From the NCBI GenBank assembly GCA_002189035.1, contig CM007989.1, forward strand, positions 7,607,501 through 7,671,500: a stretch of 64,000 nucleotides of DNA. The letters run 5' to 3'. The translations under genes and the position numbers were made by a program. Shown here piece by piece: positions 3,368 to 60,179 of the stretch. Within the stretch, counting starts at the first letter, position 1, and every line of letters starts with the position of its first letter. Below the pieces are notes generated by a model. That model made no database searches, was not told where the DNA came from, and was given only the letters and a program-made list of their open reading frames with translations. The DNA comes from Utricularia gibba (taxonomy: Eukaryota > Streptophyta > Magnoliopsida > Lamiales > Lentibulariaceae).

Positions 3368-6300
3368 TCAATGGCTCAGGGACTGAGCATCTCTTACAAC
3401 CTTAATGAAGACATCCTCCAGCGTTGTGTCAACCAACCCCAGGCCTTGACTTCGAACCTTCTCTTTGCACGCTCTACTGCTCCAAAGACATCAGCTATCT
3501 GTATTTCCTGCTTTGGAAGCTCAAATTTCTGGGTGCCTGATAATCTGTAGACTCTAACTGCATTTGAACTGAGGCCATGGACCATGTTTTCAACATCTTC
3601 TTCGTGATCCGGGGACGTAGTTATAGTCAACACGTATGAGCCTCCATATCTTAACTTAAGCTATCAAGGGAAAGTTAGAGCAGTGAGCACAAAGATGAGC
3701 AATCAAAACTTGCATTTGGGTTGCATAACCTTTCATTTTCACCAATAAGATAAAAAACAGCACTACCTCTTTTGGCTCTCCAATGCACTGTAAACTTCCA
3801 TCCTTGAAAATGCCAAGACGATCACACAAGTGCTCAGCCTCTTCCATTGAATGTGCTGAAAAAAATAATAAGTGTGAGTGCAACAACAAGCAAAGGTTAG
3901 GTTATTTCTCTCTTTCTGCAGATGGAGACTGAATCTACTTGTGAGAATTATGGCTCTGTTTTGTTTTGACTGCATCACTACGTCCCAGAGCAGGTTTCTT
4001 GAATTGGGATCAAGTCCTGTGCTAGGCTCATCCATATAAACCACCTTGGGTCACCAATGAGTGAAATTGCGACACTGAGCCTCCTCTTCATGCCTCCACT
4101 ATATTTTCCAGCTTCTTTGTCTGCTACATGAAGTAAGTTCACACTTCTAAGGGAATCCTCCACTGCCTGTATGAGCACAGAGAGCATATCAATGACAAGA
4201 GTCTATAATCAGTTCGAAGCTAAATACTTTTTTGAAAGATTGTCTAACTTTTTGCAGTGCAGCCCCTTTCAGATTTTTAAGTCTTCCATAGAAAAGAAGA
4301 TGCTCCCTTCCTGACAAAGTTTCCCAGAGCACGCTGCAAAATTTAGTACACCACTAGTTAAAAAATTCATCAAAATCGCACTGTTCAGTTCATATGGCTG
4401 TAATGCTTACTCGTGCTGAGGGCACACACCAGTGCTGCTGTATATTCTATCCTTATCCGTCTGTATATCCAGTCCATTGATATATGCAGTTCCTGAACTC
4501 GGCTTTACAAGGCCAATCATCTGCTTGAAATGGAAGAGATGAACGAATTTCAAAGTGAAGACATTCTTCAAAGTAAACTCAGGTGCAGTTCACTGACCAT
4601 ATTGATGAAGGATGTTTTGCCTGCACCATTGGAACCAAGTATTCCAAAACATTCTCCTTTCTCCATGGCAAGAGAAACCCCTCTAACTGCATACGTATCC
4701 GGGCGTCCATCCCTTCCTTTATAGACTTTTTCAATATCATTACAGATGACGGCTTGGTTTGCGGATGATTCAAGTAACTTTTGCACCCTTTCCCTCTGAG
4801 CAGAACGCAAGTTAATGAGAAAATAGAAGGATAATGATCTTACCAACCTCCAATGCCACAGCTTACCTCCTGCTCAACATCAAGCTTGTTCATCTGAAAA
4901 TAAACCTTGGAACTTTGCATTCCATAACTTTCTTCGTGGGAAGATGGTACGAACTTCTTCTTCAGCCTTCGCGGCAAGAATGAAAAAGGGCTACTTCCAG
5001 ATGAAACACGCCGATCTAGACAAAGTGCAGCACCTAGAAAGATTAGCCACTCTACCCCAATGATGATCAAGACGTTTTTCATTCCATTATTACTGGAATT
5101 TAAATCCCTCCATTGCATCCCCCTCTTTCCTGTATAAGTTCCACTGAAGGAATACAGCGAAAGGTCGTAAAGCCCACGATAAAGTGAAAATCCAGGGTAT
5201 AGTTCCATGGCGATTATTGCAGCTTCTGCAACAAAATACTAATCATAACTGTGCAGAGTTTTATAACAAGGTTCTTAGGTTCATGAGAAAATTAGCTTAC
5301 TTGAAAATGAAGAATTTTGAAGAAAGAACTGGAAAAGGAAGCCGCCCAACAGACCATTTCCAAACACAATCAAGTAACCCACAACTGAATGTTTCAACTT
5401 GTGAAAGGTTATTAAACTGTTAAGGCACAACCAATGAAAGATATTTTGCAAAGCTTTTCTCAGACTGAGGGCAAACCTGTAGCAGTCCTCACACATGAAA
5501 ACCAATCAGCGGCGAGAAAAGCCAAAGCAATTTGCAAGTTTATATACAAGAAATAGAACACGAACTGGATGCAATAATCATTTGAAGAGAAGAATTTTAG
5601 TCCTGCAGATCAAAAAGTATTTCTGAGAACATGGAACTCAAAGCTAATTCTTTCATTCCTTCTCATAAATTAAATAGTGTACAGTAGAGATTACCTACTA
5701 GGCATCCAAATACTACAAAGCACAGCGTATATAATACGGATAGTGCAAGAAAATAGCAATAAGATATCAACCAATACGGTCCATCACCAAGACCATGCAT
5801 TTTCATCATGATTCTTAGCCTGTTTTCCTTCTCGTATACCAAGTTTATCAAAATAACCTAGACGAAGCCAAGCCAATAACTATAATGAGCATGCCTAAAA
5901 ACAAAATAATAATAAAAAGAGAAGAGAATTTAAGAACTACTCACTGGGAAGAGTTGCAGAATAACCCAAGTGAAAAAGAGAGGCCCAAGGATAGAAGAAA
6001 AATCCAACCTGAGAACAGCCTCAGACTTTGGCATTTCTTTCACAAACTCAATAGGCATCTGTGTACCTGCTCCGAGAAGGAGTTGAATATACGCATTCGA
6101 TACCTGCAAGAGCAACAGAAAATTATAGTTGGCGGGGATGGAGTAGAAAGTTTCATAGTCAGGAACTGGGATATATACCCCAGATTGCTTCTGTACATAC
6201 CAAGTTTACTGAACGAGGCACCCTTGTGAGTGCAGTAGGCTGAGTTGCGCTTTTATCCTTGTATGTAGAATTGTACCATATTGTAACATTGAACAGTCCT

Positions 6301-7646
6301 CCATTTGAAGTCATAAAATCATAAGCTGCCAAACAATTTGAGGATTCAGGACATTAGAGGGGTAGAGGGTGGCTTTTTCGTGTGGTGTGTTATACAACAC
6401 TCTCTGACATCAAACCTGTTACATATTCATTGATCTTTCTTGCTGAGTTCCCCTTACGGTAACCCTTGTAAAGCTCGTTATTGATTTCTGCTGAAGTATT
6501 GCGCCACAAAAATAAACTCTGAGTGCATCGCAAATCTGCATTCCCACAAAATGGTTTCAGAGAACAGACCTATTCTATAGCAAGTCATAGAAGTTCAGTG
6601 GCAGAATCTACCTTGGGATATTGTAGTAAAACCTAAAGGGAGAGAAAACTCTAACTGAGAGTTTGAATCACAGCGAGGTTGAAAATAATCAACAGGAACA
6701 CCCGAAAAGAGAGCTGGCTCAAGATAATTGAAGTACTGAGGCGATGTCTCAGTACCCTGAAAAGAAAGATATGCTCAGTTGAGCCCAGGGATATCATTAC
6801 AACACAGGAGGAGTAACGAACCAAGGCATTGTATGCTAAGCTGTAAATTGGATCAGACAGATTCACACTGAAGGGCCTGGCCATCATATTTCCAAGCACA
6901 CCTAAGATGAGCAGACATTTGGATCATGTAAGCATCAACCTGGTAATCATGATAATGATAATAACAGGATGAAGACACATACGCTGAGCAAATGTCTCGT
7001 TACTCCCTGTAATAAGCAGCGTTGCAGGACAAGTTCCTGTACTTCTGCAAGAATCATCAGGCAAGTCCCCATGCGATGAAGAATCTGTACGAACTGCACG
7101 ATATCCTGGTGCAGGGACTTGGAGCAACACAGGCCATTCGGGAGGATGAGGAATGGCACAGGATCTTACTTGATGCAATGTCGAATATTCAACTCCACAT
7201 TTTCTAACACACTGACCATTTCCAGCAGTATCCACACATGCACAGCCACATCTGTTTGATGGCTTGTCTAATGCAAGTTCAACCATCCTTTGGATGAGAA
7301 CAAGCAACACACAGAGCATAAGTGGAATTATGACGAGTCCGAGGTTTGAACTAATGTTCCGCTTCTGCATGAAAAATTAAGTCGCCTCAGAGTACATCAG
7401 CATGCGTGGAAAACCAGAAATTACAGTTGAATAGGATTAAGATCACAGAAATCTTTATGGCTTCTGTGATTAAAAAGCTCCATACAAATGTTTTTAATAA
7501 TTGAAAAATGGTTTGGCTCCCAGTGAAGAAGACATCTGAAAAACAATCAATCTCATTAGAGAACAAGAAAATGAATAGAACAAACTCGCCTGGAAAGTCA
7601 GCTTCTTTCTCAGCAAAGCATTGGCCTGAGTGCAAAAGCTCGACAT
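3368..7646 (-). CDS. ABC transporter A family, half-size (ABCA2-12 type)
   Basis: A many-exon gene for a half-size ABCA (ABC2 homologue) transporter, a membrane lipid/acyl exporter family. The start at 7646 gives a 19-residue first exon (MSSFCTQANALLRKKLTFQ), followed by the first membrane helix (LGLVIIPLMLCVLLVLI). A long Cys-rich extracytosolic loop and a block of further membrane segments around 6100-5000 follow. The nucleotide-binding domain then has Walker A (GSNGAGKTS, about 4630), the Q-loop region, signature YSGGMKRRLS (about 4100), Walker B (VVYMDEPSTGLDP, about 4030) and the H-loop HSMEEAE (about 3850). Intron 1 starts with GC (CAG|GCGAGT). Two single-base losses break the frame: one between the signature and Walker B near 4046, and one in the last exon near 3437-3440. 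As read, the second gives a stop at 3394; restored, the stop is at 3368. These look like sequencing errors, but a recent pseudogene is possible. Confidence 0.88.
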
Positions 7647-8474
7647 CTCTTCCAAGAGTCTGAAACTTGTGGAAAGTTAGAAGAACTAAAACTACGTAAA
7701 AGGTATGTTTTTTAGCACATAATATTTTATACATGAAAAAACTAAAGTCAACACCTACAAAAAAAAACAATGTGGCTTGTGCTCCACCTAGCGTTTATGA
7801 AATTAATGGAACTACTTTAACCCAAACCTACTGTCGGATTTTCAACTGTTGTACAGTACTTTTTACCGTTCCCATATGGCAAATACCCCAAGTTTTCAAC
7901 TCATTACAAATTCGTACACCTGAATAGCAATGGAGTGTAGCCTAATTTTCCTTCTACTTTTTGTTGATAAAGTATTCATGATCAGCTTCCATTGTAGGCC
8001 AAGCGTGAAACTCCATTTGTGTGTGTTGTGACATGGGTTTTAGTACAAACAGGATCAATCTTAATGCTATATTGTAGACAAGCAAATTGGATATTACCTA
8101 AAAGTCGAAATTCCAAGTGCCTCGGCAGGAACGTCAGCAGAAGATTCCTACAATAAATGACTTGCCCAATCCGCCTCTGCGTTAGTTTCATCTTCTTCCT
8201 CTTGACTTTTTAACACAAAGATAGTTTCTTTAAAGAAAATATCAAAATACACAGATCATAAAAGGCTCAACCATGAGTAAATTAAGATCAGGCGTACATG
8301 GACAAAATGGGAGAACAAATGATTATCAATTTGGCCCCAAGGGTTTCGTCAAAATACAATTGTGACCACAGCCCGCCAGTGCGGGCCAAATTCAAACCGG
8401 CGAACTGCAGTCAGGTTGAGTACGAAGCATCTTCCCTGTTCGCAAGGAGTCGTCGTTCGTTCTTGACACACCAA
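7647..8474. promoter_or_regulatory. Divergent promoter region, ABCA / SPC25
   Basis: 828 bp lie between the two start codons of oppositely transcribed genes, so both promoters and leaders must be here. An open frame on the minus strand (7982-8191) has no ABCA-like sequence and was not taken as an exon. No specific element was identified with confidence. Confidence 0.45.
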
Positions 8475-10096: not shown

Positions 10097-10448
10097 AAGC
10101 ATCCACATCCATCCGATTACCACCCTTGAAATCCCCACAATGTTGATGATGGTTTGGAACCAAGGGGCACATCCCCAGCTTGAAATTTCCAGAAATTGTA
10201 CTCGCAAACTTCAGAGCACTCGATTAATGAACATCAATGCATCAAAGTTTCCGTTGGCAACTTTTGCCAAGTTCCAAGGGCTTGGATACACGGGTCATAT
10301 TATGGGCCCAAGATAAAGTGGATCCGAAAGTTCTTTCCTCACGGCCCACTGCCACTTGCCGAAGGATAGCCAAACCAGGCAGGACGACTGCGATATACTT
10401 AAGACAGCTCAGATGATGTGATCGGATTCATCGTCCAACCCATGATCG
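10097..10448. other. Spacer between SPC25 and ALDH12
   Basis: A tandem spacer that should hold the SPC25 3' UTR and the ALDH12 promoter/leader. A short open frame (10035-10316) is a shadow of the last SPC25 exon. Confidence 0.4.
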
Positions 10449-13638: not shown

Positions 13639-14019
13639 GAATGGAATTTCAGGTTCCATTTGCGGAAATATTTCACAGAATGTTGTTGACTCGTTCGGAG
13701 ACAAGGAATAAATAAATTCCAGAGAAATTATAATGAATTTATTATTCGACTTAATTATTTTCATTACATAAAATAATTTTTTATTATATTTTTAAATTAT
13801 TATTTAAACGAATTAAACTCATTTTTGATTTAATTATAATTGAATCGGATTTTAAAGGTTGATTGCCAGTATGGCCCAGGCCCACGTGTGATTCTTTTGA
13901 TGGGCTGGCCGGCTCCCCTCAATTTAGAGGTGTAAACATTGGAAAAGAAGACTCTGCAATCTGTTGCAGTATTTCTTCTCGTGTTGGAAGGCTTCGTCGA
14001 GGGAGGGGATTTTCGAGGG
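13639..14019. other. AT-rich spacer upstream of YLPM1-like gene
   Basis: Bases 13700-13860 are strongly AT-rich. The GC content rises again at 13870 towards the leader of the next gene. No gene is supported. Confidence 0.4.
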
Positions 14020-17000
14020 ATGGAGTACAATACTTGGCGCCCATGGCAGCCGTCCGGAAGTTTCTGCCCCGTTTGTTCAAACTCTCACTTTCCGTTCTGT
14101 CCGCCTCCTCCACCCATCCAGCAGTACTACAGGCCTCCTCCTCCGCCCTTTCCATCGGATCAATTCTTTCCCGGTGCAGTGCCCGCGCCACCTATTCCGT
14201 ACAATCACTATGCCCACCATCCCCCTGTGAATCCTTATCCTCCATCAGCCGTGTATCCTTCGCCGCGACCCTGGAACGCCCACTCAACTCTAGGTGGTGA
14301 TTATGGGAATTCCAATTGTGAGGTGGATGTTGAGGGGGTAGTCGTATTGGTGTGAAGAGAATGCGTCTTGAAACATTTGGCGATGATGCGAGGAGATTAA
14401 GACTGGTTCGCGATCATGGGGTTAAGGGGCATAGCATGAACAGGAACTACAATGGTGGAGAGCATGCCTCTGTGTGCAATTCTTCCATTTCAGTTGCACA
14501 GCAGCACAATCTTGGAGACAGGGATAAGGTGATTGCAGGTAGTACTAATGCTCATGGAATAGATGGATTGAAAATGTTGGATCCGTCAGGTAGGAATAAT
14601 GCGAATCTCGCTTCTGAATGTGCATCTTACGCGGATACGAGGCAAAGAAATTCATCTGGAAACTGGGACTTTAACAATCAAGGTTTTCATTCCAATATGC
14701 CTAATTCAGCTACGTATGCTTTCCAAAATAATAAAACCTATATGCATCCGGTGAATGAACACCCCACACAATTTGCTTCTCCCATACCGTCTCTTTCCGT
14801 CGAACCATCAAGATATCCTTTCCCTGGTAATACTGGTTCATTGAAACCTGGACCTAGGGCCTTATTCCCTGTTGTTCTGGATTCTGGAGCATCTCATGCG
14901 TCGCGTGGCATAGCCTCTGAAGCCACTGGATCAGCTTCCTTACACTATCCTAGCCCAGGAAGTACTCATTCTGGTGTTTTCCGTGCTAAGGTTTGCTGCT
15001 TACTGATAATTTGCATGCCATGGAATTTAAGTTTTTAGGCTTGATGAATACAATTTCTAGTGATATGACAAGGTTACTGTGCATTCCAAGTTTTATGTTT
15101 AATACTTTTTCTTTCAGGAAAATCAAGGCTTAAAACTTGCTTCTGCTGATAATATCAAGAGCGAGACAGCAGAGCTTTCTTCCAAGCTTGCCCCACTCGG
15201 CAGGCCAACACTCGTTGATGCCTCTCATATATTAAAGCATCCATATCGTGCTAACGGGCCAGATAATATTGTTATAATCCTGCGTGGGCTCCCAGGTTAT
15301 TGTTAGATATTTTCATTTACAATTTTTTTTCCTGTTTCCCCTATCATACTTACTATATCATCTATTGGTTTATGGATTTTGCACGCGGATTTCAACTGTG
15401 ACCGCTGTTTTATACATTTTTGGCTCTATCAGGTGCATTTCTGTATGTCTGAGTAATGAGATGATCTTGATAATTCAGGAAGTGGAAAAAGCTATTTAGC
15501 TAAAGTTTTGCGTGACCTTGAGGTTGAAAATGGTGGCTCCGCTCCAAGGATTCATTCCATGGATGAATATTTCATGAATGAAATCGAGAAGGTTCTATGA
15601 TTTGCATCCTTTGTTGCTTTTTTAAAGTCGCAGAAACATTTCTTTATGTTTCTTTTACAGTGCGTTATCTTAATTTTGAGGTTTTGACCTTTTTCATGGC
15701 ATTATTCAATAAATAAGATGCCTTTTTTTTCAAACTTGTAGGTTGAGGAGAGTGATAAATCCAGTATTTCTGGTACTAGTAGGACCAAAAAGCCTACTAA
15801 GCAGAAGGTCATGGAGTACGTATATGAACCCGAGATGGAAGAGGTACAATAAAGGTTTTGTTATAAGTTATTGACATTTAGGGTCCCGACCTGTTAAATT
15901 TCTGCAAACCAACGCGCGAGTAGCAAAATTTTTTTCATCACATAAAAATAACCTGTAATGATGTGTGCTTGTTTTACATAGGGCAAGTACTCATGTCATG
16001 CCAGCATATATATTTTTGAGTGTAATATGCTTCTTTTTGAAAAATATCATCTTTTATAAAAATACACGTGAGTGATGAAGTCACTTGATTCTTTGATTAA
16101 TCTTATATAGCTCTCTGATTTTGTAACTTTCAGGTCTACCGATCTAGCATGTTGAAGGCATTTAAAAAGTCCCTTGATGAGGGAGTGTTCCCTTTTGTTA
16201 TTGGTATGGGTGTTTACTTTAATACTGTATACGATTTTGATGTGCAGTTCATTTATAATCATGAGTGTTTCTCTGTGCTTATGATATCCTTTTCGGGATT
16301 CGTTTTCTGTATTCTTCATAGATGTAGTTGAAATTTATAATTGATATGTGACCATCCTTGCCCCAAAAAGATTAAATTAGAAAAAGTTATTCTGTAAGTC
16401 AAGTCGACCATGAGTTTGACTAACTCCAGATGCAGTTTATATAGCTATATTGACCCATTTGTTGGTGGTATTTGTTCCTCATCTTAGTGGATGACCGCAA
16501 TCTGCGGGTAGCTGATTTTGCTCAGTTTTGGGCAACTGCAAAGGTATACACTCCACTCCTATTTCAAGGGGGGTTTCTGCCAGTCTTGTTATCATACATA
16601 GGATTAGGATTTTTTATTTTTGCAAATTATTCCCCCTCTTTTGTCAGGTAACCATGCATGCTATACACCAATTGGCTGTAGGAAGAACGAGCCTACTATT
16701 ACTATATTGTGTCTTTCTACAGTATTTAATCACTGTTTGCATCTTCCAATAGGGTGCTTTTTTTAAAAAATCCTTTAACACATACCATTAGATGTCCTTT
16801 AATCATCCTCCACAACTCTAACCTTACTCCCTTCCTGTAACCAAGCAGTGGGAAGGATGAAGCCTAGTGTTTTCTCTTTGCTCCCCATTTAAGATTTCTG
16901 ATAATCTATCTTATGTATGTTTTTATAGGATTAACTGATATTTAACTTTTTGTCATTTAAAAATGGTAGGATGTTCCTGTAAACGTGCAATAACCATCAT

Positions 17001-19906: not shown

Positions 19907-22900
19907 ATGCCGATGAGCAGATACCAGATAAGGAGCGAGTACGGTTTATCCGATCCGGAGCTGTACCGCGCTGCCGACAAGGATGATCCCGAGGCTTTGC
20001 TCGAGGGAGTCGCGATGGCCGGATTGGTTGGCGTGCTTCGCCAGCTTGGAGATCTGGCTGAGTTAGTTCGTGTATTATTGAATTCGTTGATAGGTTTTTT
20101 ATACAAGGATTGGTTAATTTGAGAGTTTGGATTTTCTCTCGTGTTGTACTTTCAACTCATGCCGCAATTCGTATCCATTTTTGAACTTCCAACAAATTGA
20201 ACTTCTTAATATGCATGTGAATTAGATGCGGTTAGTCTTGCATTTAGTTTTCTTTATAGCTTTAGGTTTTAGGAGATTGCGTCGGAGTTCTTGAGTTGCA
20301 GTGGTTAAAAAATTTAATGAGGTTTCTGGTTTATTTTTGCTTTTACCTTTCCGATTTTTGTGCTCCCTGCCTATTTCTCCAGTGTTGCTGTATCTTGATA
20401 CTAATGCGTGCTCTTGATGACAAGACACTTGGAAGCTATCTTTGATTTGTCATTGTGGTTCTTCAAGGTTTGCTGCAGAAATTTTTCATGATCTGCATGA
20501 AGAAGTCATGGTGACTGCTGCAAGAGGGCATGACATAATGATCCGGGTGCAGGAACTTGAGGCCGAGGTTCCTTCCATTGAGAGAGCATTTCTTTTCCAG
20601 ACTGATCATTCATCTTTCTTCTATAATGCTGGTATTTTCCTTTTTTCTGATTCTTGTTATTAAACCCACCAACCGCCTTTAGTTGTTTTCTAGGATGTAT
20701 CTTTTTCATGAATACCTCGTTTTGCCCCATGATAACTGTTTTCTGGCACTTGTAAGATTTACTGATTATCAAGCACTCTGTTCTGTAAGTTAGTATTTTC
20801 CTCGAATAGTTTCTCAACATAAGTTTCTTCTCAAGCGGTTCTTTATAGTTTCTCTTGTTTCAATGAGTTGACTCTTGCAAATAAAAGCATTATGTTCCAG
20901 GTGTTGATTGGCATCCCGAGTTTAGGGAAAATAAGAATCATGCAGCATTTGAGGATATGCCTAGATTCGTTATGAATTCCTATCAAGATTGCAGAGGACC
21001 TCCTCAACTGTTTCTTCTTGACAAGTATCATAAGCTCTTCACCAATTTGTTTTCTGTTACGAAACTGCTGTGGCATCCCAAAACTCAATGGTTGCTTTTA
21101 GGTATGATACTGGGGGAGATGGAGCATGTCTAAAACGTTACACTGATCCCGCTTTTTTCAAAGTAGCAACATCAAGGAGCAGTACTGATGGCCTGTCAAA
21201 TAACAAGACCCGAAAAGCAAAGGTATGACAGTTGAAATTGAAATGCACATAACCAAGCAATGTTTAATTAAGAAAAATATGGGTTCCTAGGCATCTGAAA
21301 TTTTTCCAAGTCAAACTATTACTATTTTTTGTCATCTTATCTTTACATGTATTAATTTCCATTGTGATGCTACCAACCTAATCATTTTTTTGATCTCCAT
21401 TTCCATTTATTATCCACATAAAGCACAAAAGAGGGCCACATTTAGATAATGGCGCTGCAGCTGTTGCTCTAATGCAGTCCAATCCAAAGTGAGACTATCC
21501 TATTTTGCTTCACATACCTTTTCTTGCTTAAAGTTTGAAATCAGATGTCACAATTTTTTTTTTTTGGTTGGTATAGACTCCATCAGCTCTTTCTTGAGGA
21601 GCCCATTAATAAAACTGTTCACAAGCCCGGTCGTGTGAAACTGAAAAAGAGGCTCAATGGGTTTCCCTTTGATACGAAATCTGGAAAGAGTTATATGGAA
21701 AAGTTATTTATCACTCCTGTGGAGCATGAGATGCATTTTAGAGTCTCCAGGAGCTCGCCACTGCGGTTGCCTACTAATGTTTGTAGTGAATTTGATCCTG
21801 AAATTCCTGAAGTACGACCAGTCAGTCCTCTCAGGAAAATAACTCAGAGAATAAAAAGTTGTCCGCAACCTGATGAAGCAGGAACAACGCAGAATGAACT
21901 CATGTATGTCAATAATGATGCTTCTACTGATGAAACATGTCAGGGCTACAATTTACTTACCACAGTTGATGAGAGCAGCGAAACAGATATACATTTGGAT
22001 GGTGCAAGACAACAGGCGGACAGCATGATATGTGTGCCGCTTGACACTGCCAGTGGTATAGATGATAATCCTGCCACACCTCCACTTGTGGAGTTGGGAG
22101 GGGAAAACCATGACCTGCGACTGAAGAATGATTGGAGCTCCTCGTTCTTTCAGAGGCAATTTTCTGTCTCAAATCTCGAAAATTGTTACTCCCAGCCATC
22201 AGATTCTCACGCTATTACAAGTTCATTTAATTATGAAGACGAGAGCTATCCAGCAAGAAATTCTAACTTTATATCTACTCTCGTGAAAAGGACATCAGTG
22301 AGAAACTCATTCACAGACAGAACTTCCCTTGAAACGGTTAAGAAAAGTTGTTCAGCAGATGAGTTTCTAGAATCCTCTGTCTCTCATGACAATTATCAGA
22401 ACATGGTCGTGCTTAACAACAGCGGGCACAATGTTGAGCTGCTGGATATGGTCCCCATGAGCAATGATCCCTTGTGTAGTTTACCGCATTCTGACTCAGA
22501 AGAAGTTTCCAGTGAGGTTCAATCAAAGGGATGCATGTCAAATGAAGTCGCTTCTGTCTTGGACCCCATAAAGGAGAGTGGCCTCATCTTGGGTTCTACT
22601 TCTACTAAAAACAGGAGTTCTGATATGCAGCTGCAAGCGAATTCTGGCATACTGAACGAATCAAATTCTGTGAATTCAGCCAGTACATCTGTGGTGTCAG
22701 AGTATAATTCGGTTTCATCAACATCTCATTCACTTCGTGAAGATAACGATGACCAAGAGGTTTTGAAGCCAATGAAGAGCTCTCCTCTCTTGTCCCACAC
22801 TTGTGATGTTCTTCATCAGAGTATAGTTGACAGTGAAGAAAGAATTCTTTCCTCTAAGATGGTCGGGGTGGACGTGGTGTTGACATTCAAGATTGTTCAG

Positions 22901-34508: not shown

Positions 34509-36967
34509 ATGGAGGACAATAACCCCTTGTGCGGATCCAAACACTGTCCCGGCTGCGGCCATAAACTCGATGGAAAACCAGTGAGTTCCTCCTCCTCGGT
34601 CTTTCTTTCTGTCCTTCTTCTTCCTAAGATGGTGGTGTGGTGTAAGGATTGGGTGGGGTTGCCGGCGGGGTGAAGTTTGATCCCACCGACCAAGAACTGA
34701 TCGAGCATCTGGAAGCTAAAGCTCAAGGGAAGGAGTCCAAATCTCATCCCTTGATCGACGAGTTCATTCCGACCATCGACGGCGAAGACGGGATCTGCTA
34801 TACCCATCCCGAGAAGCTCCCTGGTTCGTATTTTTCTTAGCAACACGCACCCTACACACAGTCCCGATGGATCGATCGTGTGTGTTTAGACTTAAGTCGC
34901 CTGGGTTGGTAACCTAACCTTACTTTGCTTCATCAACCATCCAATCAAGCAAACTCTTCTCTCCTTGTCAGAAAGTAACTGTAAATTCTCAGAACTGAGA
35001 ATCAGTTAGGGTTTTTCATTTTTGTGTTTTCGTTTGCAGGAGTGACGAGAGATGGTTTGAGTAGGCACTTCTTTCACCGGCCGTCGAAAGCATACACGAC
35101 GGGGACACGGAAGAGGAGGAAAATACAAACGGAGTGCGATCTTCAAGGGGCGAGACACGGTGGCACAAGACCGGGAAAACGAGGCCGGTGATGGCAAACG
35201 GCAAGCAAAAGGGTGCAAGAAGATACTGGTTTTGTACACCAATTTCGGGAAAAACAGGAAACCGGAAAAAACCAACTGGGTAATGCACCAGTACCATTTA
35301 GGGAAGCATGAGGAGGAGAAAGAAGGTGAGCTTGTTGTTTCGAAGATCTTCTACCAGACTCAGCCACGTCAGTGCAATTGGTCGGAGAGAATCTCCGGCG
35401 GGGTCGCCGCCAGCGCTGCTGTTACCGACAGCGGCGGCAGCTCCTCATCCCGAAAAGATGAGTTCGCTGCAGCGGCAGGTAATCTAGCAGCGATTCCGGG
35501 TTACAATGCACCTGATATACATCGCCATTTCGGGTTTCTCCCCGTCTCCTTCGACCAGGTAAAAAATGGAATTTATAATATTCCCCGCATACAGTAACAT
35601 CGTGTGTTACGTAAATATTGGTGGGGCGTTTTTGCACAGGGTGACAGGATCGGAGAAGCTTCCATCGGACGGGAAGCAGGCGGAGGCGCGTGCGAGGACG
35701 TGATCGGAGAGCCACGCCTTCATCACCCTCAGCAGCAGCAGCAACGACACCAAATTAGCACAGCCTTCAACATACGCAGGCCATCGCATTCCGTCTCCAC
35801 GATCATCTCGCCGGCGTCCATGAACATGATCCTCGATCAAGATCACTCCTTTGATGTCATCAACCTCCCCCATCAAAGTTTCCAGGTTTTGCCTTTTCAC
35901 TCATTCTTGTCGCGCCCCCGACATGAAATCATTCACGAACCCCATCCCTTTTCTTGCATGCTTATCATGATCACCCCCACGTCATCACACCATCCATTCT
36001 TTCTAACCCTAAATCCCTTATTCCTGCATTTCCACAGCCCCCGCCGCAGCCACCTCCGCCGGCGCCGCCGCAGCATCACAAACTGGGAGGGCGCTCAACC
36101 TCTGGATTGGAGGAAATCATCATGGGATGCACTTCAAGTGACATTAAAGAAGTAAGTAACTTCCAAATGCACTTTTTTTCTTCCCCCCCACGTGACAAAC
36201 CCTACACCTTACGCAAATCTACCCCCTCAAGCAGCATGACAGAGAAAAAAAAAAGGGCAAAAGTACAAACCACCAAACCATGTGTTGGTCTGTGTGGGTG
36301 AGAAAATAACCGTTTTTTATTTTTGAAAAAGTATTTTTTTAATAAAAATATTTAATAGGGAAAAGCAGTTACTTTTCTAAACATCTACTAATCTACTATC
36401 TTATTCCTGTAAACTATCTTCAAAACAAGAAAAAAAGCAGAGAAGAGAAAACCCTTTTTCTTTTTTAGTCATCCCCTTTCTTTATCTCTGTGCTCTTTAA
36501 CTTCGATCCCATTCCCATCCCTTTCTTCATTCAAACAGCTACATGGTTTTGAGATCCAGACAATGAAGTCTTTCAGCTTGTGCCTTACCGTATAAACATA
36601 GCAGAGGCTTCTGAGTTTGTGCCAGAAACTGGCTCCAAGAGCAAGTCTGCACATTTCTGATACTCTCTTGCCATTCAAAAAGCGCAAAGGGTGTGCGCCA
36701 TGAACACTTATTCCTTCTGTTGATAAAGAACTATGGATAGGAAAGGAACCCTGAGCCCTTTTCCCCTTTGGCATCCTAAGAGACCATTTTTTTTTATTTG
36801 TTTGTTTGTTTGCTTCTCAGGTGGATTTTGTGTATGTTTTACTGATAAACGCGAAACTGGAACCTCATTTGTTGCAGGAATCGACGATGGGGAACCAACA
36901 GGAAGCGGAGTGGTTGAAGTATTCGACGTTTTGGCCGGAGCCGGACAGCCACGATCATCATGGATAG
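34509..36967 (+). CDS. NAC075: NAC transcription factor, NAC075 type
   Basis: DNA-binding NAC transcription factor of the clade holding Arabidopsis NAC075, whose relatives act in vascular/secondary-wall and flowering control. Six exons are read: 34509-34580, 34647-34823, 35040-35558, 35640-35885, 36038-36151 and 36878-36967. An N-terminal CPGCGHKL motif precedes the NAC domain ([77 protein letters not shown]). The C-terminal region has Gln/His and Pro runs, then [17 protein letters not shown]. It ends in [21 protein letters not shown], matching the clade. The NAC domain is broken by three single-base losses, all in G runs: 34667-34670, 35147-35150 and 35211-35213. Restoring each one returns the family sequence. 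Confidence 0.9.
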
Positions 36968-41873: not shown

Positions 41874-43175
41874 TTAAAGCCCCTGCTCAATGAGGTAATC
41901 ACCTATCCTCTCAACAAGCACGTTGCATTGGCCTGGAGCCATGGGCTCATCATAGATGCCAATGATTAGGGCAAGCCCGGTTTTCTTTATTGTTGCGCCA
42001 CCAGCTCCCTAGCCCAAAATCAATATATCAATGTAATGAGATGATGCAAACGGTCAGAAGACAAACTTGGTGGGAAACATATACAATTCTGAGTACTGGC
42101 ACATCTTAACTTAGAAAACGATCTACAAGTGAACAAAGGCATCTGAAAAGTGCCAGGGAATTCGATGCTAATCTACTGTACCAAACTTCATTCCATAAAT
42201 GATATCGGAAGCTTCAACTTTTATCTTGCATCATGCCGATGCAATCTTAATGAGAAGGGGATATGATAAGGTTGCAAAGAGAGGAGCAGATTTCGACATT
42301 TGAAAGGAGCAATTTTCACTTACAATAGAGGAGTGTCAACATACCTTCTTCCCTCGAATGACTGCCCCAGGCTCGCCTTGAATCACCATGTATTTAATTC
42401 CCCCAATGTACAAACCTGTAGGGGCTAGTGTGCCAGGAGCTTCAAAGTCGCTCAACACAGCAGTTAGCTCCTCATGCTTGAACTGCATTAGTATGATTCA
42501 AGAGATAGATATAATCTTTTGCAGATAAAAACTGAAAACTTGTCGACGAAACATCAGGCTATTGCTAACGATTAAAAATTGAATGCAACAAGCATCTTTC
42601 TGATTGAAAATAAATTTTCTAATGCATTCAAAGAAACCAAAAGTTCTCACAAGCATCGCCACATGATGGTAGGTGTTGAGTTAAAGATGATCACTTTCAA
42701 CCAAATAAAATATAATGCAAACAAAGAACAGACTTTCGGACCAGATCAGGCTATAAAGAAAATCAAACAAGCTCTGATAATAGATCTGGAAGCCAGATCA
42801 GGCTATACAAGAACTGCTAGATCAAATTACTTCAGAATTAATATAAACATATCTAATTTCAAAAAAACCTAAAAAATTCAAATCAAGTAAAACGAAGTCA
42901 AAAATTGGCTGGAGCAAAGGACACTGAAAAATCAGACTTAATTTCAAGAAATCCCAAATTGAATCTGCCAGCCCAATTAAATTCGAATCAAAATCAATAA
43001 CAAAGCACCAGATCCAGAAAAGCAACACATTCGGTAATTAAACAAGGCGAACCACTGGGAAAGTTGCGCTCTGGGCCCAGACGCTGCCGTCATGGCCTAT
43101 AATGGCAGCGGAAGTAAGGCGGCAGCCTTCATAATCGGCCATCAAATGGTCGTCGATGTAGGTTTGCCACGACAT
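41874..43175 (-). CDS. PRF: Profilin
   Basis: Actin-monomer and poly-proline binding protein, also a known pan-allergen family. Three exons (43175-43053, 42482-42345 and 42008-41874) join at phase 0 to 131 residues, exactly the usual plant length. Hallmarks are the N-terminal [46 protein letters not shown], the GKKGAGG loop and the C-terminal helix [15 protein letters not shown]. The conserved three-exon structure of plant profilins is kept. The first donor (GTG|GTTCGC) is a weak consensus but gives the right frame and length. Frame is intact throughout. Confidence 0.97.
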
Positions 43176-43600
43176 GGTTGAGAGTCGACGACAAAAAATA
43201 CGCCTTGCTGCTGAAGTGCGAAAATGGTGATGCACGACTGCGAACGGAACTTTATGCTGACGAGTCGAGCATCTTGACCATGAAAAGACTATTTCACCCC
43301 TCCCGTTTACTCCTCGGTCGCGTATGAGAGATTTCAAATATTCCTCCACGATTTCCTCCCCATTGCTTGTACGGGAGGGCTCAACCGTAATTACAGAGTG
43401 TCGGTATTTTCTCTCTCCACGAAACGGGTTTAAATTTCAAAATTTCTCATAAGCTTTTGTTCTTCGCAAAATTCTCCGCCATTTTCCGTTGGAATCTCCG
43501 TTTCTTGTTGGGAGCGTGACGGCCACGCCCGCGAACGGCGGTTTCTCTGAGCTCCGCGGCTTGAGTGAACGGTTTTGGAATCTGAGAACCGTGAACGCTG
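43176..43600. promoter_or_regulatory. Divergent promoter, profilin / SPC24
   Basis: 425 bp separate two start codons of divergent genes. The region is GC-balanced and must contain both promoters and leaders. No consensus element stands out. Confidence 0.45.
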
Positions 43601-45866: not shown

Positions 45867-47638
45867 ATGGGAAATTGCGGTACTAGGGAGGAATCAGCGG
45901 TTGTCGTTACTGCCCATCAAGGTAACCATTTATCAGACCTATTCTCCTAATCGTCTGTCAGATCTGCTTTACTTTTCCGACGACCCCACTGTTTGTTTTC
46001 GATTTCTTCTGGTCGCAGCTCCGGAGTTACCTTCTTTGCCGTCCAGAAACCAGGGTACGGAGAGGAAACACGGTGGCTTGATTTCAGATCTGAGCGAACC
46101 TTCGACGCCCCGTAACGTTGAGGATTTCAATAGAAATTCTATGTTATACACGCATGTCATTGCTTTCACTCTGTTTGAACTAGAAACTATCACTAAGAGT
46201 TTCCGTTCTGATTACATTCTTGGGGAGGGCGGTTTTGGAACCGTCTACAAGGGCTATATTGATGAGAATGTCAGGGTTGGCCTGAAATCCTTGCCTGTTG
46301 CAGTCAAAGTGCTTAATAAAGAAGGCCATCAAGGTCACCGTGAGTGGCTGGTGCGTCTTTTCATCATACTTGAAATCTTCCATGTTGCAGGCTTTCTTTT
46401 CAGTGTCACCACCTGAATATGATTTGTAATTGCTTGCTTCCAGACTGAGGTCAACTTTCTTGGGCAGCTGAGGCATCCTAATTTAGTGAAGTTGATTGGA
46501 TATTGTTGTGAGGATGATCACAGGTTGCTTGTTTATGAGTTCATGTTCCGAGGGAGCCTCGCAAACCATCTGTTTCGCAGTAAGCGCATTGTTTTTTTTT
46601 CCCTTCCAGATAGTGATGCTCTATGGTGGCCTATTCTTGGTCTAATGCTTCAGCGACTTACAGAAACAGCTGCTCCCTTGTCTTGGAAACAAAGGATGAT
46701 GATTGCTCTTGGGCTGCAAAGGGGCTTGCATTCCTTCACAATGCGGAAAAGCCTGTTATATACCGTGATTTCAAAACCTCTAATATTCTGCTGGACTCGG
46801 TTAGTTCATCAGATGGAATCTTTAAGTTTCTGTTCGTTCCAGGGAAATGGGTCTTGCTGTGTGTTTCATTGTGCATCTGCATTGTTTCCGAGGAAAACTG
46901 TTAAAAAGTGCATTCTTACAGGATTATATGGCCAAGTTATCTGATTTTGGGTTAGCAAAAGCTGGACCCCAGGGGGATGAGACGCATGTTTCTACCCGTG
47001 TTATGGGTACCTATGGTTATGCTGCACCAGAATATGTCATGACTGGTACTCACCCTTCTTTGCAGCTTTGATCAAACTTGCCTTCAACGCATCACAATCA
47101 CTTGCAAACAATCTCTACATTTTTATTCCTGCTGTTGATCGTGTTGTTGATACACAGGGCACCTTACTGCTAGGAGTGATGTCTACAGCTTTGGGGTTGT
47201 TCTTTTGGAGCTGCTAACCGGCAGGAAGTCTGTGGACAAGACAAGGCCGAGCAAGGAACAATGGTTGGTCGATTGGGCGAGGCCAAAATTAAACGACAAG
47301 AGAAAGATGCTGCAAATCATAGACCCGAGACTAGAGAATCAGTACTCAGTACGAGCAGCCAGAAAGCAGGTAGCTTGGCATACTACTGCCTCAGCCAAAA
47401 CCCCAAGGCAAGACCCTTGATGAGTGATGTGGTGGAGACTCTGGAGCCTTTACAATGTGATGGCGGTTATGACATCTCATCATCACCCTCATCAGCCCCC
47501 ACTCTCCTATGCAGCAACAGCCCCTTTGTCACAAGAAGGGTTCCTGATTACCGGATGCATCGACAATTGGCCAGCACGGTTGGAGGTGTCGGTCAGAATG
47601 GCTCACCGGGTTTCCACGCTGCTTGCCAAGTTAGATGA
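45867..47638 (+). CDS. PBL8: Receptor-like cytoplasmic kinase VII, PBL8-like
   Basis: Ser/Thr kinase of RLCK subfamily VII, membrane-attached. The start at 45867 gives MGNCGTREE, an N-myristoylation Gly2 with adjacent Cys4 for palmitoylation. A Ser/Pro segment (LSEPSTPR) precedes the kinase: G-loop [18 protein letters not shown] lysine, [19 protein letters not shown], catalytic loop [70 protein letters not shown]. The C-terminal tail keeps PDYRMHR and ends CQVR, as in Arabidopsis PBL8. Two single-base losses break the frame: one in the GGG at 46711-46713 (before [10 protein letters not shown]), one at about 47366 (in the last helix). Conservation continues on both sides. These kinases relay immune and developmental receptor signals. 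Confidence 0.92.
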
Positions 47639-48210: not shown

Positions 48211-50920
<2,710 letters not shown>

Positions 50921-51959: not shown

Positions 51960-54821
51960 TCAAGCTAGTAATCTAGCAAGCTCATCAACCCTCAGGCTTC
52001 CATGGGGAGTTGCACCAAGGTGTTCAGCTTGAACGAATTCCAGTCTTCGAGTTTTTGAAGTCTTCCTTCTGCTATCTCGCTTCCCAGAAAGTGTGATTGC
52101 TCCTGTGCTTGCAATTGTCTCAGGTTGTTTTGGTTCTGAATCACCTGAATCTTGTACCTTGTTTTTCTGGGAGCTGTTGTTCTTGGGTTGCATCTCAAAG
52201 ATGGGACCGGGTGGCGCAGTTTTGTCGAATGCAACTGCTTCTTTTAAGATGAAATCAGCATCCAGTCTATGATTCTGGAAAACAATTGCCATCCCATTTT
52301 CTATTGCTTGCTTCCTGAGCAGTAAAATCTCATCAACACACCGGTTACTAACAAGGGATTCAGCTTTCACTGGGGATGGGGAGTGTGCCAAAATTTCTTG
52401 GAATTCAGAATCTGCTAATCTTGCAACAGAGTCTTCTGAGAAAGCTATTTTGCTTTCTGTGGTTTCATCTGTGGCATCATGTGGTGGCACCATAGACCCC
52501 CTGGATCCGTTTATTCTCTCGTCGGCCAACATCGAAGAAATTGTTTCATCACCCACAACTGCGGTTTCAAGATCAACCAATTCACTGTCCAGTAGAGATT
52601 CCTCATGGTCAGTCTCTTGCAAATCTGAGAGAGTCACCACTGGTGACATTTCAGGAGCTGTTGAATGGGTTTCTTTATGTGAGGAGTCATCAGGAGAAGA
52701 TGCTGTTTCTATAGCATTGGAGTTCATTCCTAAAGAATCCCTCGTACATACGATGATTCATTGGGATATGACTTTGTTCCTAAAGAATCGGCGGCCACCA
52801 CTGGAGATGATGATGTTGTGGAAGCCAAAGAATCAAGTTTTGCTTGGGATGATTCATTTCGAGTCGGACTATGTTCAATGGAGGACTTCCACTCTCTCCC
52901 CCTCCACATTAGAATGTGTTCCCGTTCAAAGGAAATTAATACACAAGGGACAAGATCCTGCAGCAGAAGAAGTATTATCAGCGAGAGGAAGAAAATATGC
53001 TTGAAACAGATGGCACCAGTCTCAACCGATATACCTGGAGTTTAGCACCTATTTTCTTGAAGTCTGAGGGATTCAACCCTTCACAGTTGATTCGAACCAG
53101 TTCGCAGGCCTCAAACGCCTCACGAACATGCCTCACAAGGTTAGAATAGAGCCCATTTTTTGCTGCAAGTCACATGAACAAAGATTCATATGTAGTTGAT
53201 CAATGATATGGGAGAAGAGACCATTGCATCACGTACCAAGTTTGCATATTGGTGTAAGTTCACGCCCTTTTGTTCGCATCTCACGTGCTTCATCTAAAGT
53301 TAAACCCTCAGGAACGTGTTTCACCAACCTTGGGTACACTGGAGCAGCCGGCTTCCACAGCATAAGAGGAAAGCGAGGTCGTGTTTTATGGTTATAGTTT
53401 CTTCCCCGGAAAAGGTATATCACCCCACCCCTGTTGAAGATAATCTTGCCTCCAGTCTTTTCCTGCAGAAGCTCATCGTCTCAAACCATTCTACTACAAA
53501 AACTTGCATAAGCTGAAAAGGTGAACAGGATCAACGGATTGAAAAACAGGCAATGAACTGTCTGCCCTTACCAAAGCTATCAAACACCATTGATAAACTG
53601 TTTTCAGAATATAAGAAAAATACGCAGAAAAGCAAGCAGAACATACCGACCTCAAGTTGTTCACAGATGTTGTCCATGTCCACCGTGCATACGCCTATGC
53701 ATTTTATTTTGCAGACCCTTCTACGCTTCCAAAGGGCATGAATATTTTCCAACATGTTATGTGTTAAGCCATCTCTACCTGAGTATAAAACATACGATGA
53801 TCAGCCCCGCAAAGCATGTCTGGGCTTGACACTTTGTGAAGAAAACACGAGTTCATGAACAAAACCAAAATGTAAGCAGATTTCTTTGGAAGAGAAACTG
53901 CTACAATACACTGAATGGAAATACCTTTGTCTTTTCAATGTGGCATCTTGTTAGGATTTCTAGATATTGAACTCGAACTTTGTATCAAAAAAGTGATCTA
54001 TGTAAGAACAAGAACAAAGAGCATACCCATATTCAACTGCCGCCTGGACTTTTTGCAGCTATGGATGAGTTCAAAAATTTCTTCCTTTGTCAATGGCTCA
54101 CCAATTATTTCTTCTCGCGAAATGACATACTTTGGCCCTGAGTCCGGAAGAAAGGGTCCCGGCGCCTGGACTGGCTTCACACCCTTCTTCTGAGGCGGCA
54201 ACTTAAACGAATCTAACTCAGGTAATGCCTTTTTTGCCATAGGCTTCTTCCCCATCCATGGCTTCGGCATTGTTGTGGGACCAAATGGAGACACTAACGG
54301 CTCCCGTAACTTAACAGGCTTCACCTTAGGCGTCTCAGTGTAACTGTACTGATACACGAATGGCGCACCCGGCAATTCGTAAGAAACTCCACTTTCATCT
54401 ATTCGGAAATTGGCTTGAGGGGATGTTTCGTTTTCCTTTCCATGCTCAGTCGGAGGGAGTTTTCGGGATCTCAGAATGGGTCTGAAGGCCGGATGCACAG
54501 GAGAAGAATCTGGAGGCTTGGAGTATTTAGAAGCTTTCCCTGGTATCGACGGCGACGAGGGGCTGACGGCGTGCCAGTGGATTTATGGGTAACGGGGTGA
54601 GGTGGAGCTGGGTTGTAGTTATGGGATATAGCGATGGCGGCGTCGAAGCGTTTCTCAAAGCGGATTCGGTCTTCCAGTTCTTTCTGCGTGCGCTGACGGA
54701 GGTTGAATTTCCTAGCGTTGGCATTGTCCCACCGCGAAAACCGGATTTCGGTGACCGGGCGGTGAGGTTGTGGGCGGAGCTGCAGCGGCGAAAAGAATGG
54801 GAATTGCGTTTCCAGAGCCAT
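51960..54821 (-). CDS. CAF1: CRS2-associated factor 1, chloroplast group II intron splicing
   Basis: Chloroplast CRM-domain protein that, with CRS2, splices a subset of group IIB introns. The start at 54821 ([18 protein letters not shown]) looks like a transit peptide. A family-specific region follows ([36 protein letters not shown]). Two CRM domains come next: the first around 53760-53400 ([35 protein letters not shown]), the second around 53160-52930 ([22 protein letters not shown]). The C-terminal tail is acidic and disordered. Single-base losses near 54534 (in exon 1, before [11 protein letters not shown]) and at 52739-52741 (before [11 protein letters not shown]) break the frame; both lie next to G/C runs on the coding strand. 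Confidence 0.92.
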
Positions 54822-55010
54822 CTTCGGTTTTCCGTACCACCCCTCCAATTTAGTGGAAATTGGGTTTGGGTTCTTTTCTTTTTTTTTTTTTAAATTCAGG
54901 AGGTGGTGTATATCATCAACGCAGTTACCTCCTAATCATTACAAGTACGAAAGAGAAGGAGAGCGGCCTGAATCTGCAGCCCACCGTAGGGTTGGCCGAA
55001 GGCAGCGACA
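54822..55010. promoter_or_regulatory. 189-bp divergent promoter CAF1 / glyoxalase I
   Basis: Only 189 bases separate the two start codons, so both leaders and the core promoters share this space. It contains a T run at about 54879-54892. Both products appear plastid-targeted. Shared regulation is an inference. Confidence 0.55.
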
Positions 55011-57960
55011 ATGATGAGGATAATTCCGATGGCGTCTACGATTAAGCCTTCGCTCTCCTCACGGGGATTCGTTGTTCCGTTATCCTTGTATTCCAATACG
55101 TTTCATCTGAATGGTACACTTCTTCGCAGGGGTTTGATTATGCTCCTTTTCTTTCTGGGCGTGGTATTCTTGTTTGAATTTTCTGAATTCTGTTAGAAAA
55201 AAAGATAAAAACTTCAGCTTCTAAAGAAGTCCTGTTGTGTAATCTCGAGGAAGTGATTTGCTGATCCCCTTCTTGCGAATCATTTTGATGCTGCTATGCT
55301 AAGGTTCATTCTCGTTTTGATAAGTCTCTGACGGAGTTCCGTGCTTCGCAAAGTCCTTGAGCTATTTTGAGGATTAGTGGCTTGTTGGTCATTCTGTTTC
55401 TTCTATTTTCTCACCTTTGTGCATTCCTTCTTAATTACTGTTCGGTGATAGAATTTGTGACACACATACAGTAACTACTGTATGATGGCTGCAATCAAAT
55501 GGGGAATATTTTGATGAGTTATCTGAGTGTGATCAGGGTCATTTACGGCTGCAAGAAAGGTGCAACCTTTTGGTCTTCGAACGTTTAAGCAATTCAAAGG
55601 AACAACTGGCTGTACATTAGCTAGCGCTGGTGGTGGCTCAGTGCAGGCAGCTACTACTACGACACAAGAAAATATTTTGGAATGGGTTAAGAAGGACAAC
55701 AGGAGAATGCTGCATGTTGTCTATCGAGTTGGGGACCTGGACAGAACAATAAAGTATGTACATTTAAAGGTGCCACATATTTGGTTTTCTACATAGGACT
55801 ATTACTCATATGTGATTAACTGGCGCAGATTTTACACCGAGTGCCTTGGAATGAAACTGCTCAGGAAGCGTGACATTCCAGAGGAAAGATATACTAATGC
55901 TTTTCTTGGCTATGGATCAGAAGATTCTCACTTCGTAATTGAACTCACCTACAGTAAGTTGTTTTCTAAAGGGGCTTCTTATGCTCAATAAAAATGTGGT
56001 TCATTTACTGTTTGGTCAATGTCCTCACCATCAGCCTTATGATTTCATCTGTTCTTTTCTAGATTATGGAATTGATAAATATGATATTGGATCTGGATTT
56101 GGTCATTTTGGGATCGCAGTAGATGATGTAAGTTGCTAATTTTCTCTTCATTTTGTTGTTCTTATTAAATACAGTGATGGGAATAATGATAGTGAAATGA
56201 AATATTTCTCTTCTGTGTTTCTGATCACCTGAATTGTGCAACATTGGGTATGACTCTATAGCACGCACTTTGAGTTTCTTCTCATCTTTAAAAAACATCG
56301 GTAATGACAATATAAGTTGTATGCAGAATTAGATGAATGGGTTTCTCTGTCTTTCTGATAATCGTTTTCAAAAAAAAAAAATAATAAGCCAGCTTCTTTG
56401 CTTCATTAGTGGCAGGAAACGCATATCTGAATTCAATTATGCAAAAAAGTAATAAATGATCTATCCTTGTGTTGCAATCCGATATATGACTTCAAGTGAC
56501 CGTGGATGCTTCAAAAAAGTGCCAAGGGTCTTGTTATTGGGCCTGCCAAGTACTTGTTTATTATTGATCAAAGAGTCCCTTGTTGCATGCTGAGTCGTAG
56601 CCTAGTGAGGTGTATATTATATATGGTGTCTGTTGCCTAATAAACTGCAAATCTCGGAGTTGTAGAAACATGCAAAGTATTTGAGGGGAAATCCTGTAAT
56701 CTGCTTAGGAGGTAGATGTTGGCATATATTTGCCACTGATACTTTAGTTGTGGTACATTTCTTTCTAAAACAAAACGCCCCTTCTCCTTTCTTCTGTCTT
56801 ACTTTTGTGGCTTCCATTGTTGCTACTGATCGTTCCATTGCATGAAAGGTTGCAAAGACTGTTGATCTCATCAAAGCCAAGGGAGGTAAGGTAACCCGAG
56901 AACCTGGACCTGTCAAAGGTGGAAATACTGTTATTGCATTCATTGAAGACCCTGATGGTTACAAGTTTGAACTTTTGGAACGGAATCCTACTCCGGAGCC
57001 TTTATGTCAAGTAATGCTTCGTGTTGGAAACCTCGATCAATCCATTGAATTTTATGAGAAGGTAATGGCTGCTGAATGAAAGTGAAATTTTCTGCTCTTG
57101 TTTTATCGTGTCCATCCAAGTCCGAAACAAACATTCTTCATTAGGCATATGGCATGGAGCTCTTACGCAAGCGGGACAATCCTGAATACAAGGTAAATAC
57201 TATAGGGTGGAAAGCTTTGTACTCTCTTCTACCTTCTTGTATGACACGATCAAGTCCTGATTTCTGATTAGACTTTTATGATTGTTCAGTATACAATAGC
57301 GATGATGGGCTATGGTGCTGAAGATAAAAATGCTGTAATGGAGTTGACCTACAACTACGGTGTTACCGAGTATGAGAAAGGAAATGCTTATGCTCAGGTT
57401 ACCCTCCTCAACCCAGGATCTTCTCTTCCTTCTGAGTTCTCATTAATCAGTTTGAGGATCTTAAATTCCTGAATTTATTTTTTTTTCTCCAGATTGCAAT
57501 AGGGACAGATGATGTTTATGGTACTGCAGAGGCAATTAGACTATGCGGTGGGAAAATCACAAGGGAACCTGGACCATTGCCCGGCATTAACACCAAGATT
57601 ACGGCATGCCTTGATCCTGATGGTTGGAAGACGGTAATGTCCTCACTTCCAAATAGTTTTTTTCTAGTTGGAATCCAAAGGTGAAAAAATAAGCTGTTGT
57701 GTGTAGTTACATGCCTCTTATGATAGTATCAATGAACTCGCCATGATCTCCTGCTTTTCCTTCAGCAACACACATATGCACTTTGTTTCCCCCTGTGCGA
57801 GTGTGAGCTAACCAGCATTTGTTTGTGCAATCCCTTGTCATGTTGTTCTGCTAAATACAGATGCTGTGAATCTGCCACAGAAATGCCCCTCATGAGAATC
57901 ATCTTTTGGATGTTGCAGGTGTTTGTTGATAATGTGGACTTTCTCAAGGAGCTTGAGTGA
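55011..57960 (+). CDS. GLXI: Lactoylglutathione lyase (glyoxalase I), plastid type
   Basis: Isomerises the methylglyoxal-glutathione hemithioacetal to S-lactoylglutathione. Exon 1 gives a basic, Ser-rich transit peptide ([20 protein letters not shown]). A second ATG at 55029 (MASTIKPS) is an equally good start. Two tandem glyoxalase domains follow. Domain 1 has [54 protein letters not shown] and GFGHFGIAV. Domain 2 has [45 protein letters not shown] and [14 protein letters not shown]. The double-domain, Ni2+-type architecture is the usual one in plants. All introns are GT-AG and frame is intact. Confidence 0.95.
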
Positions 57961-58429
57961 GAAAAGCAAACCACCTATAGATACACTCTTGCAATAGCCC
58001 TTTCATAGGCCATAGATCGATTCAATCTGCTGTGTTCAGGTTTTGGCCTTGTACATTAGATTTCTTGGCCACAGGAAACAATGATGCTGTCTTCGTATTC
58101 TTTGTTTAAGCAAAAATGCAAGCCTGTTTTCAATGCCAATGTCCAATGTCCAATCCAGAACATTATACAGCAACTCGGTAAAAAAACTGATAGGAAACAA
58201 GCACTTGGACAAGACGTCTCTAACCCTGTAACAGGCTCCAATACGAAGAGAAACAAATGTGTATGAATGATGCTTCTGTAGAATACTGATCTGTATGTTC
58301 CCTTTTGCTATGCTCTTTAGTTAGCAGTCAGATGAGAATTGCAGCAGCAGTAGGAAGAAATTGAAAGGAAAAATGCGACAGCCCCCAAGTGCACCAGCAC
58401 AAGCAGAAATGACCAGGTAACAGCACCTA
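57961..58429. other. Convergent spacer glyoxalase I / zinc-finger gene
   Basis: 3' UTRs of two converging genes. No separate feature is seen. Confidence 0.4.
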
Positions 58430-60179
58430 TTAAAGTGCATCTCTTCTGATAACTCTGCGGTCTTCATGCCACTGATCCATGTAAACATCATGCCGGTATT
58501 TCTTGGGTGGAGGTCCACCTCTCACTGGAGATCGGCTCCTATTTCGAATATATGGCCAGTCATGAGATGGAGATGACAACCTACCCCATACTCTCTCCTG
58601 TCATTGTAGTAGTTATCACTTCGGCGACTTGTGTGAGTCCAGCCTCCTGGTAAAGGCCGATCATACCCGTACCTATTCCTAGGATCAGCACCAGGATGGA
58701 ATCTGCCTTCATGCCTGTTAGGGTGTCCAGTAGGTCTGAAGTCTCTTGGAAGAATATCTCTCTGCCAACTGGGAGGAGGGGAATGGTATCTACCATTCGG
58801 AATCCTCCTTGGAGAAGAATCAAACACAGGAGAAGGCACATGGTGCCGTGGTACAGACGGATTACCAGAATATCCACCTCTCTTAGGACTCATAGATGAT
58901 GCAAAACGAGGCCTACTACAGTTGTTGCAGCGCTCTCGCCTTGCGAAATTCAAGTTGTTGCACCTGCCAGATGGGAAGACTATATAACAATGAAAAACAT
59001 GGTTTGTGATCATTGAGATGCAATAACCAAATAGCTGACCAAACATGGAAACTCACGAGGGATCTGTGCATATCCAATCTCCTTCCCTTGGGCGAACATT
59101 TGGATTATTTCGGGAAGGTCCCTCTCCTCTTGCTGGTCCAGGAACACGACTGGATCGAACATATGGTCTCCTGTCGAACCCAGAGTCCCTTCCCCGGTTG
59201 TAAGAGGGTGAAAAATCACGATATCTACCTGAATCTCTTCCACTGCCAAATCTGCGATTCCCTGAATCTCTGCCATTGTCAAATTCATGATTCAGAGGTG
59301 AACTGACAGTGCGTTCCAGCCCTGGACTTACTCGGTTGATTGGATCCCTATGATGCGTGGGAGAGAAAGAATCTGCCTGTAGCTTACGCCCTGGAAATTT
59401 ACATGAAGATGAAGTTGCATAAGTAGAAGCCGCCAAGAACAACGTTTCTTTAGGAGCAACCATGCAACATGAGAAATGCTTGAACGCAGCTAAATTATGC
59501 CAGCCCAAGGTAACTACCGACCAAGCACTGACTTCTGAGTGACAAGTAAAATGTACTATAGTTGCCCAAACTCGTATGATAAAATGATATCACGAAACTT
59601 CAAACCACCGTAGAACATACCAAAAGCCAGCCAATATGCTACAGCCAGGAATCGATCGTAGCATGCCCAGTAGTTAATCAACCACGATCACAAATTCACA
59701 ACGAATTCTCATTTCAACAATGCACATCAACGCAACTAGAGTCTGCTTAAACTACAAGCCTGATTCCCTGAGCAATCAAATCTCTTAATCAAGTTTCAGT
59801 TCCTCATACATGGGTAGCTCATTCAGGTTTTTAATAATTGAGAATAACACCCAAAACCGTGACCATCATAGTCTTCAACTTGAAATTCTCAGGGAATGAA
59901 CCTACGAATTATTCAGCTACAACCAGATGAACATTTCAATGCACATTGCACCACCATCAAAATGCCTTTGACCAAAGAAAACAAGAAAGTAAAGAGGCTC
60001 AAACCGCGGGGATCGTAGCGATCGTGGTGCCCATGCCGGTGAACTTCGTCAGATTCGTAATCGGCACCCACACCTGCCCTATCACTACCCACTCCTTCGC
60101 CACTGACGCTCGGCCGAACGACGAGGCTGCTAAGTAGCGGCTGGCGGGGAGTCTCTTGATCGTTCCTTCGTGTTCCCAT
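58430..60179 (-). CDS. RanBP2-type zinc-finger, Arg-rich RNA-binding protein
   Basis: Three exons. Exon 1 (from 60179) is disordered (MGTRRNDQETPRQP) and ends in DRYDPRG. Exon 2 is rich in RDSGR/RG repeats and ends in GDWICTDPS. Exon 3 completes the zinc finger: CTDPS|C..LNF..RERCNNC fits the RanBP2 pattern W-x-C-x4-C-x3-N-x6-C-x2-C. The rest is Arg/Pro/Ser/Tyr-rich. This resembles plant TAF15/ZRANB2-like proteins that bind single-stranded RNA; the exact orthologue is not claimed. As read, exon 3 ends early because of a one-base loss in the C run 58584-58587. Restored, it continues with RLSSPSHDWPYIRNRSRSP to a TAA at 58430. Confidence 0.8.

Follow-up and report, generated by a model that had tools for sequence, protein, structure and literature searches.

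The single-base frame breaks that interrupt conserved exons in a 64,000-nucleotide stretch of the Utricularia gibba genome (the window) are in all likelihood consensus errors. The genes themselves are probably undamaged in the plant, and the assembly consensus appears to have dropped one base from short G/C runs. The initial annotation had listed twelve such breaks, all of which are present in the sequence; eight were confirmed against duplicated genes, and the other four are likely from frame handover.

The window comprises bases 7,607,501-7,671,500 of contig C1 in an assembly of 100.09 Mb in 516 contigs. The N50 among the contigs met was about 3.45 Mb, and one contig measured 6.82 Mb. The source is probably the 2017 PacBio-only HGAP assembly of U. 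gibba, which agrees with it in size, N50 and the presence of one large contig but differs in contig count; a review of that assembly gives HGAP, 88-fold coverage, 581 contigs and an N50 of 3.4 Mb (PMC5793159), and a 6.8 Mb unitig is also on record (PMC8333044). Four of the 23 contigs met are exact multiples of 500 bases long, which suggests that the consensus caller or the polishing step worked in fixed windows.

Frame breaks in the window and their duplicates

Much of the window is duplicated on contig C496 (156-202 kb), which provides a test inside the same assembly; C416 carries a duplicate of the ABCA gene, and C213 a paralogue of importin beta. Two comparisons were made: a plain DNA alignment of the window with its duplicate from the same assembly, and a codon alignment of the window with C496 or C416 that allowed frameshifts in either copy. 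The breaks, with an additional difference in the PBL8-like gene, are as follows.

3437..3440, minus strand: ABCA exon, one base missing at CCCC (presumably C5 shortened to C4); the C416 duplicate is one base longer and the frame resumes VDTTLEDVFIKVVRDAQ
4041..4047, minus strand: ABCA exon, one base missing, GACCC|AAGG; DNA alignment plus frames against the C416 duplicate
14334..14338, plus strand: YLPM1-like exon, one base missing at GGGGG (presumably G6 shortened to G5); frame handover only
22865..22868, plus strand: SCAR exon, one base missing at GGGG (presumably G5 shortened to G4); the C496 duplicate is continuous
34667..34670, plus strand: NAC exon, one base missing at GGGG; codon and DNA alignment against the duplicate, with a paralogue on C2 in agreement
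35147..35150, plus strand: NAC exon, one base missing at GGGG; codon and DNA alignment against the duplicate
35211..35213, plus strand: NAC exon, one base missing at GGG; alignments against the duplicate, with paralogues on C409 and C2 in agreement
46711..46713, plus strand: PBL8-like kinase exon, GGGG of the duplicate shortened to GGG by the loss of one base; DNA alignment plus frames
47358..47360, plus strand: PBL8-like kinase exon, one base missing, AGC|CAG, outside any run of at least three; codon and DNA alignment
47610..47620, plus strand: PBL8-like C-terminal tail, in which the window has one net additional base or lacks two when compared with the C496 duplicate; codon alignment
52739..52741, minus strand: CAF1 exon, one base missing at CCC; frame handover only
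54534..54585, minus strand: CAF1 N-terminal exon, one base missing within the interval; frame handover
58584..58587, minus strand: RanBP2-type zinc finger gene, loss of one base at CCCC; frame handover to RLSSPSHDWPYIRNRSRSPVRGGPPPKKYR

The runs lie at the positions originally given for them, with two corrections: the second PBL8 break is at 47358-47360 rather than 47366, and the CAF1 break placed at about 54534 is better described as an interval. At all eight tested sites of the original list, the duplicate kept one frame and the window was short by exactly one base. The plain DNA alignment showed the duplicate to be one base longer at seven of them, the SCAR alignment being more diverged, and the codon alignment placed the loss in the window at six (NAC 34667, 35147 and 35211; ABCA 3437; SCAR 22865; PBL8 at about 47359). 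PBL8 46711 and ABCA 4046 were assigned from the DNA alignment plus the frames. The codon alignment had drifted into the neighbouring intron at PBL8 46711, and the frames decided the assignment: the duplicate can be read as canonical kinase sequence, and the frame of the window is lost at GGG. Two additional NAC paralogues support the loss at 35211, and one of them also supports that at 34667. A further one-base difference near 35891, in a weakly conserved stretch of the NAC C-terminus, looks like a loss in the duplicate.

The YLPM1-like gene, CAF1 (two sites) and the zinc finger gene were judged by frame logic. Here, one open frame yields to a second in which a plausible protein carries on; the zinc finger protein, for example, continues into RSRSPVRGGPPPKKYR. 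These four breaks are likely one-base losses as well, yet less certain than the eight tested ones as they have no informative duplicate. The CAF1 interval from about 54534 to 54585 contains CCC (54538-54540) and GGGG (54560-54563), of which GGGG is the more likely place of the loss.

The initial annotation had described each break as a loss and never a gain, which holds for all eight tested sites on its list. The PBL8-like tail, absent from that list, is the one case against it: near 47615 the window has a net additional base or two losses, and LLAKLDE continues in another frame. Conservation of the tail is poor, and the change may lie in either copy.

Programmed frameshifting at the break points, or introns missing from the annotation, might in principle mimic such losses. 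One apparent GRAS gene split (C4, L078) is indeed an ordinary intron, and the ABCA break at 4046 coincides with an intron, about 86 bases long, that interrupts the ABC domain of the C416 duplicate (L064, C416:266500-276000, bases about 5887-5970) and is absent from the window copy at 4041-4047. That difference is an intron gain or loss after the duplication, and it makes ABCA 4046 a less clean site. However, the frames abut or overlap at the tested sites, so that no intron would fit between them; the duplicates run on without a break, and a G/C run is the only signal common to the sites. We therefore give this explanation hardly any weight.

Run context and selection

For the eight tested breaks, we evaluated the sequence context over aligned coding sequence totalling 15.3 kb. 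Seven breaks touch a G/C run of at least three bases, although such runs make up only 9.2% of coding positions (p = 4e-7). The claim that nearly all breaks fall in G/C runs was thus borne out, with PBL8 47359, outside any run of at least three, as the exception. Among runs with an inferred length of at least four, seven of 70 G/C runs were broken as opposed to none of 149 A/T runs (Fisher p = 2.8e-4). Presuming that the missing base belonged to the run, about 29% of 5-base G/C runs, 5% of 4-base runs and 0.5% of 3-base runs, by inferred true length, were short by one. The identity of the lost base is deduced, since most losses are at third codon positions. G/C runs of at least six bases were also depleted in the window, with three seen against about 9-13 expected under Markov models, and long A/T runs in the window showed no depletion against such models. 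In 184 kb elsewhere in the assembly, G/C-run depletion was clear only from seven bases upward.

Real mutational slippage at G/C runs, for instance in a clonal plant with weak mismatch repair, would likewise alter runs by single bases, and at equal length a G/C run is less stable than an A/T run. However, slippage should also strike the longer and commoner A/T runs and add gains, neither of which was seen, and essential genes would be broken. We consider slippage highly improbable; equally so is a plant that truly carries many one-base G/C-run losses in a slippage-prone clonal genome with its essential genes somehow working.

The exons had also been reported to be conserved beyond the breaks, unlike those of decaying pseudogenes. 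This was the case for three genes, with dN/dS against the duplicate beyond the breaks of 0.04 for NAC, 0.10 for PBL8 and 0.12 for ABCA, close to the 0.07 of a clean LRX gene. SCAR, with 0.37 before the break and 0.66 after it, is under weak constraint downstream and, being loosely constrained, says little on selection. The importin beta gene, named as a clean neighbour in the initial annotation, proved free of breaks, as did the LRX-type gene, profilin and glyoxalase I. The profilin gene lies at 41874-43181 on the minus strand of the window, and its duplicate on C496 is intact.

Another scenario is that the frameshifts are real and recent, in newly broken pseudogenes that are tolerated since many have a duplicate. 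ABCA, SCAR, NAC and PBL8 do have duplicates, and recent breaks would keep dN/dS low: selection was not relaxed beyond the lesion in NAC, PBL8 and ABCA, but a very recent lesion would not show such relaxation. On the other hand, the mixture of stops, gains and losses expected of old pseudogene decay was absent from the broken coding exons in the duplicate alignments, which contain almost only one-base losses. We regard this scenario as very unlikely, also in view of the CAF1 and GRAS genes described below.

Losses elsewhere in the genome

The losses are distributed genome-wide and independently of gene function, as GRAS genes, the SCAR duplicate and a CAF1 paralogue on other contigs are affected. 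The C496 duplicate of SCAR bears its own one-base loss in exon 1, near 157690, opposite position 19975 of the window (GCCCCGAT). For CAF1, no close duplicate was found; its sole clear paralogue, probably CAF2, lies on C328 (L091, C328:1897850-1898250) and lacks one base at a C run close to the N-terminus. Losing chloroplast splicing factors such as CAF1 and its paralogue should cripple a green plant, which makes a real loss of both implausible and argues against real frameshifts.

GRAS genes are mostly intronless. Among the 36 GRAS genes that could be judged, a count that excludes further fragments, 25 have an unbroken domain and 11, on many contigs, are interrupted by a total of 13 one-base losses, most of them at G/C runs. 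Six losses were confirmed in codon alignments to an intact paralogue and two more between two related genes with one break each; the remaining ones were read from the frames by eye. The intron-split gene on C4 mentioned above was rejected as a loss. Five genes break at or beside the conserved PGGPP motif (PGGPPxxRITG), mostly where the codons (e.g., GGC CCC CC) build a C5-C7 or G5 run, and four intact paralogues spell the motif with other codons. Such recurrent breakage of long, codon-made runs fits undercalling of G/C runs. Two of the GRAS losses (CAGCG, AAGCG) involve no more than a GG pair. Real frameshifts would make about 30% of the judged GRAS genes newly broken.

The density of losses was 5e-4 per coding base in the window and 3e-4 in the GRAS genes, the former being biased upward because the window was picked for looking broken. 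Seven histone H4 genes were intact, in a sample of just 2.2 kb.

We also considered whether the reported DCL3 truncation of U. gibba could be the same artefact and rejected this idea. A weak PAZ match at C213:2761103-2761288, without a Dicer-dimer match nearby, is by elimination possibly the published truncated DCL3. The truncation does not look like an artefact, given the missing Dicer-dimer match and the 5' RACE by which the authors verified it (PMC8333044).

Probable undercalling of G/C runs in a long-read assembly

Homopolymer undercalling in a long-read assembly, the cause put forward in the initial annotation, is supported by losses that are nearly one-directional, located at G/C runs and spread over other contigs, by intact selection on both sides of the breaks in three genes and by the apparent match to a PacBio/HGAP assembly. 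The true G/C runs would be three to six bases long, mostly four to five, and each would have been undercalled by one base, so that the plant DNA would carry the extra base, with PacBio consensus calling as the probable cause. Two points do not fit undercalling by single losses: PBL8 47359 lies outside any run of at least three, and PBL8 at about 47615 has a net extra base or two losses. Counts of gene losses, pseudogenes and shortened proteins derived from this reference would be misleading, with about one third of the judged GRAS genes bearing a one-base loss. The sites in the window and in the GRAS genes are ready test points for comparing the assembly with accurate reads.

The pattern resembles that of long-read-only assemblies (PacBio RSII, HGAP/Quiver), in which one-base indels at short homopolymers likewise split conserved frames (Watson and Warr 2019, cited in PMC12007338). 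Plant BACs assembled with HGAP/Quiver and sequenced deeper had error rates of 2.0e-5 to 5.7e-5 (PMC5873921). The rate observed here is about 5- to 25-fold above these published rates, and undercalling leaves the rate itself unexplained. Besides this 5 to 25 times higher density, the U. gibba assembly differs from the plant BACs in the kind of error: indels between two assemblies of the BACs were not specifically in homopolymers (PMC5873921), whereas those found here are almost only losses and almost only in a G/C context.
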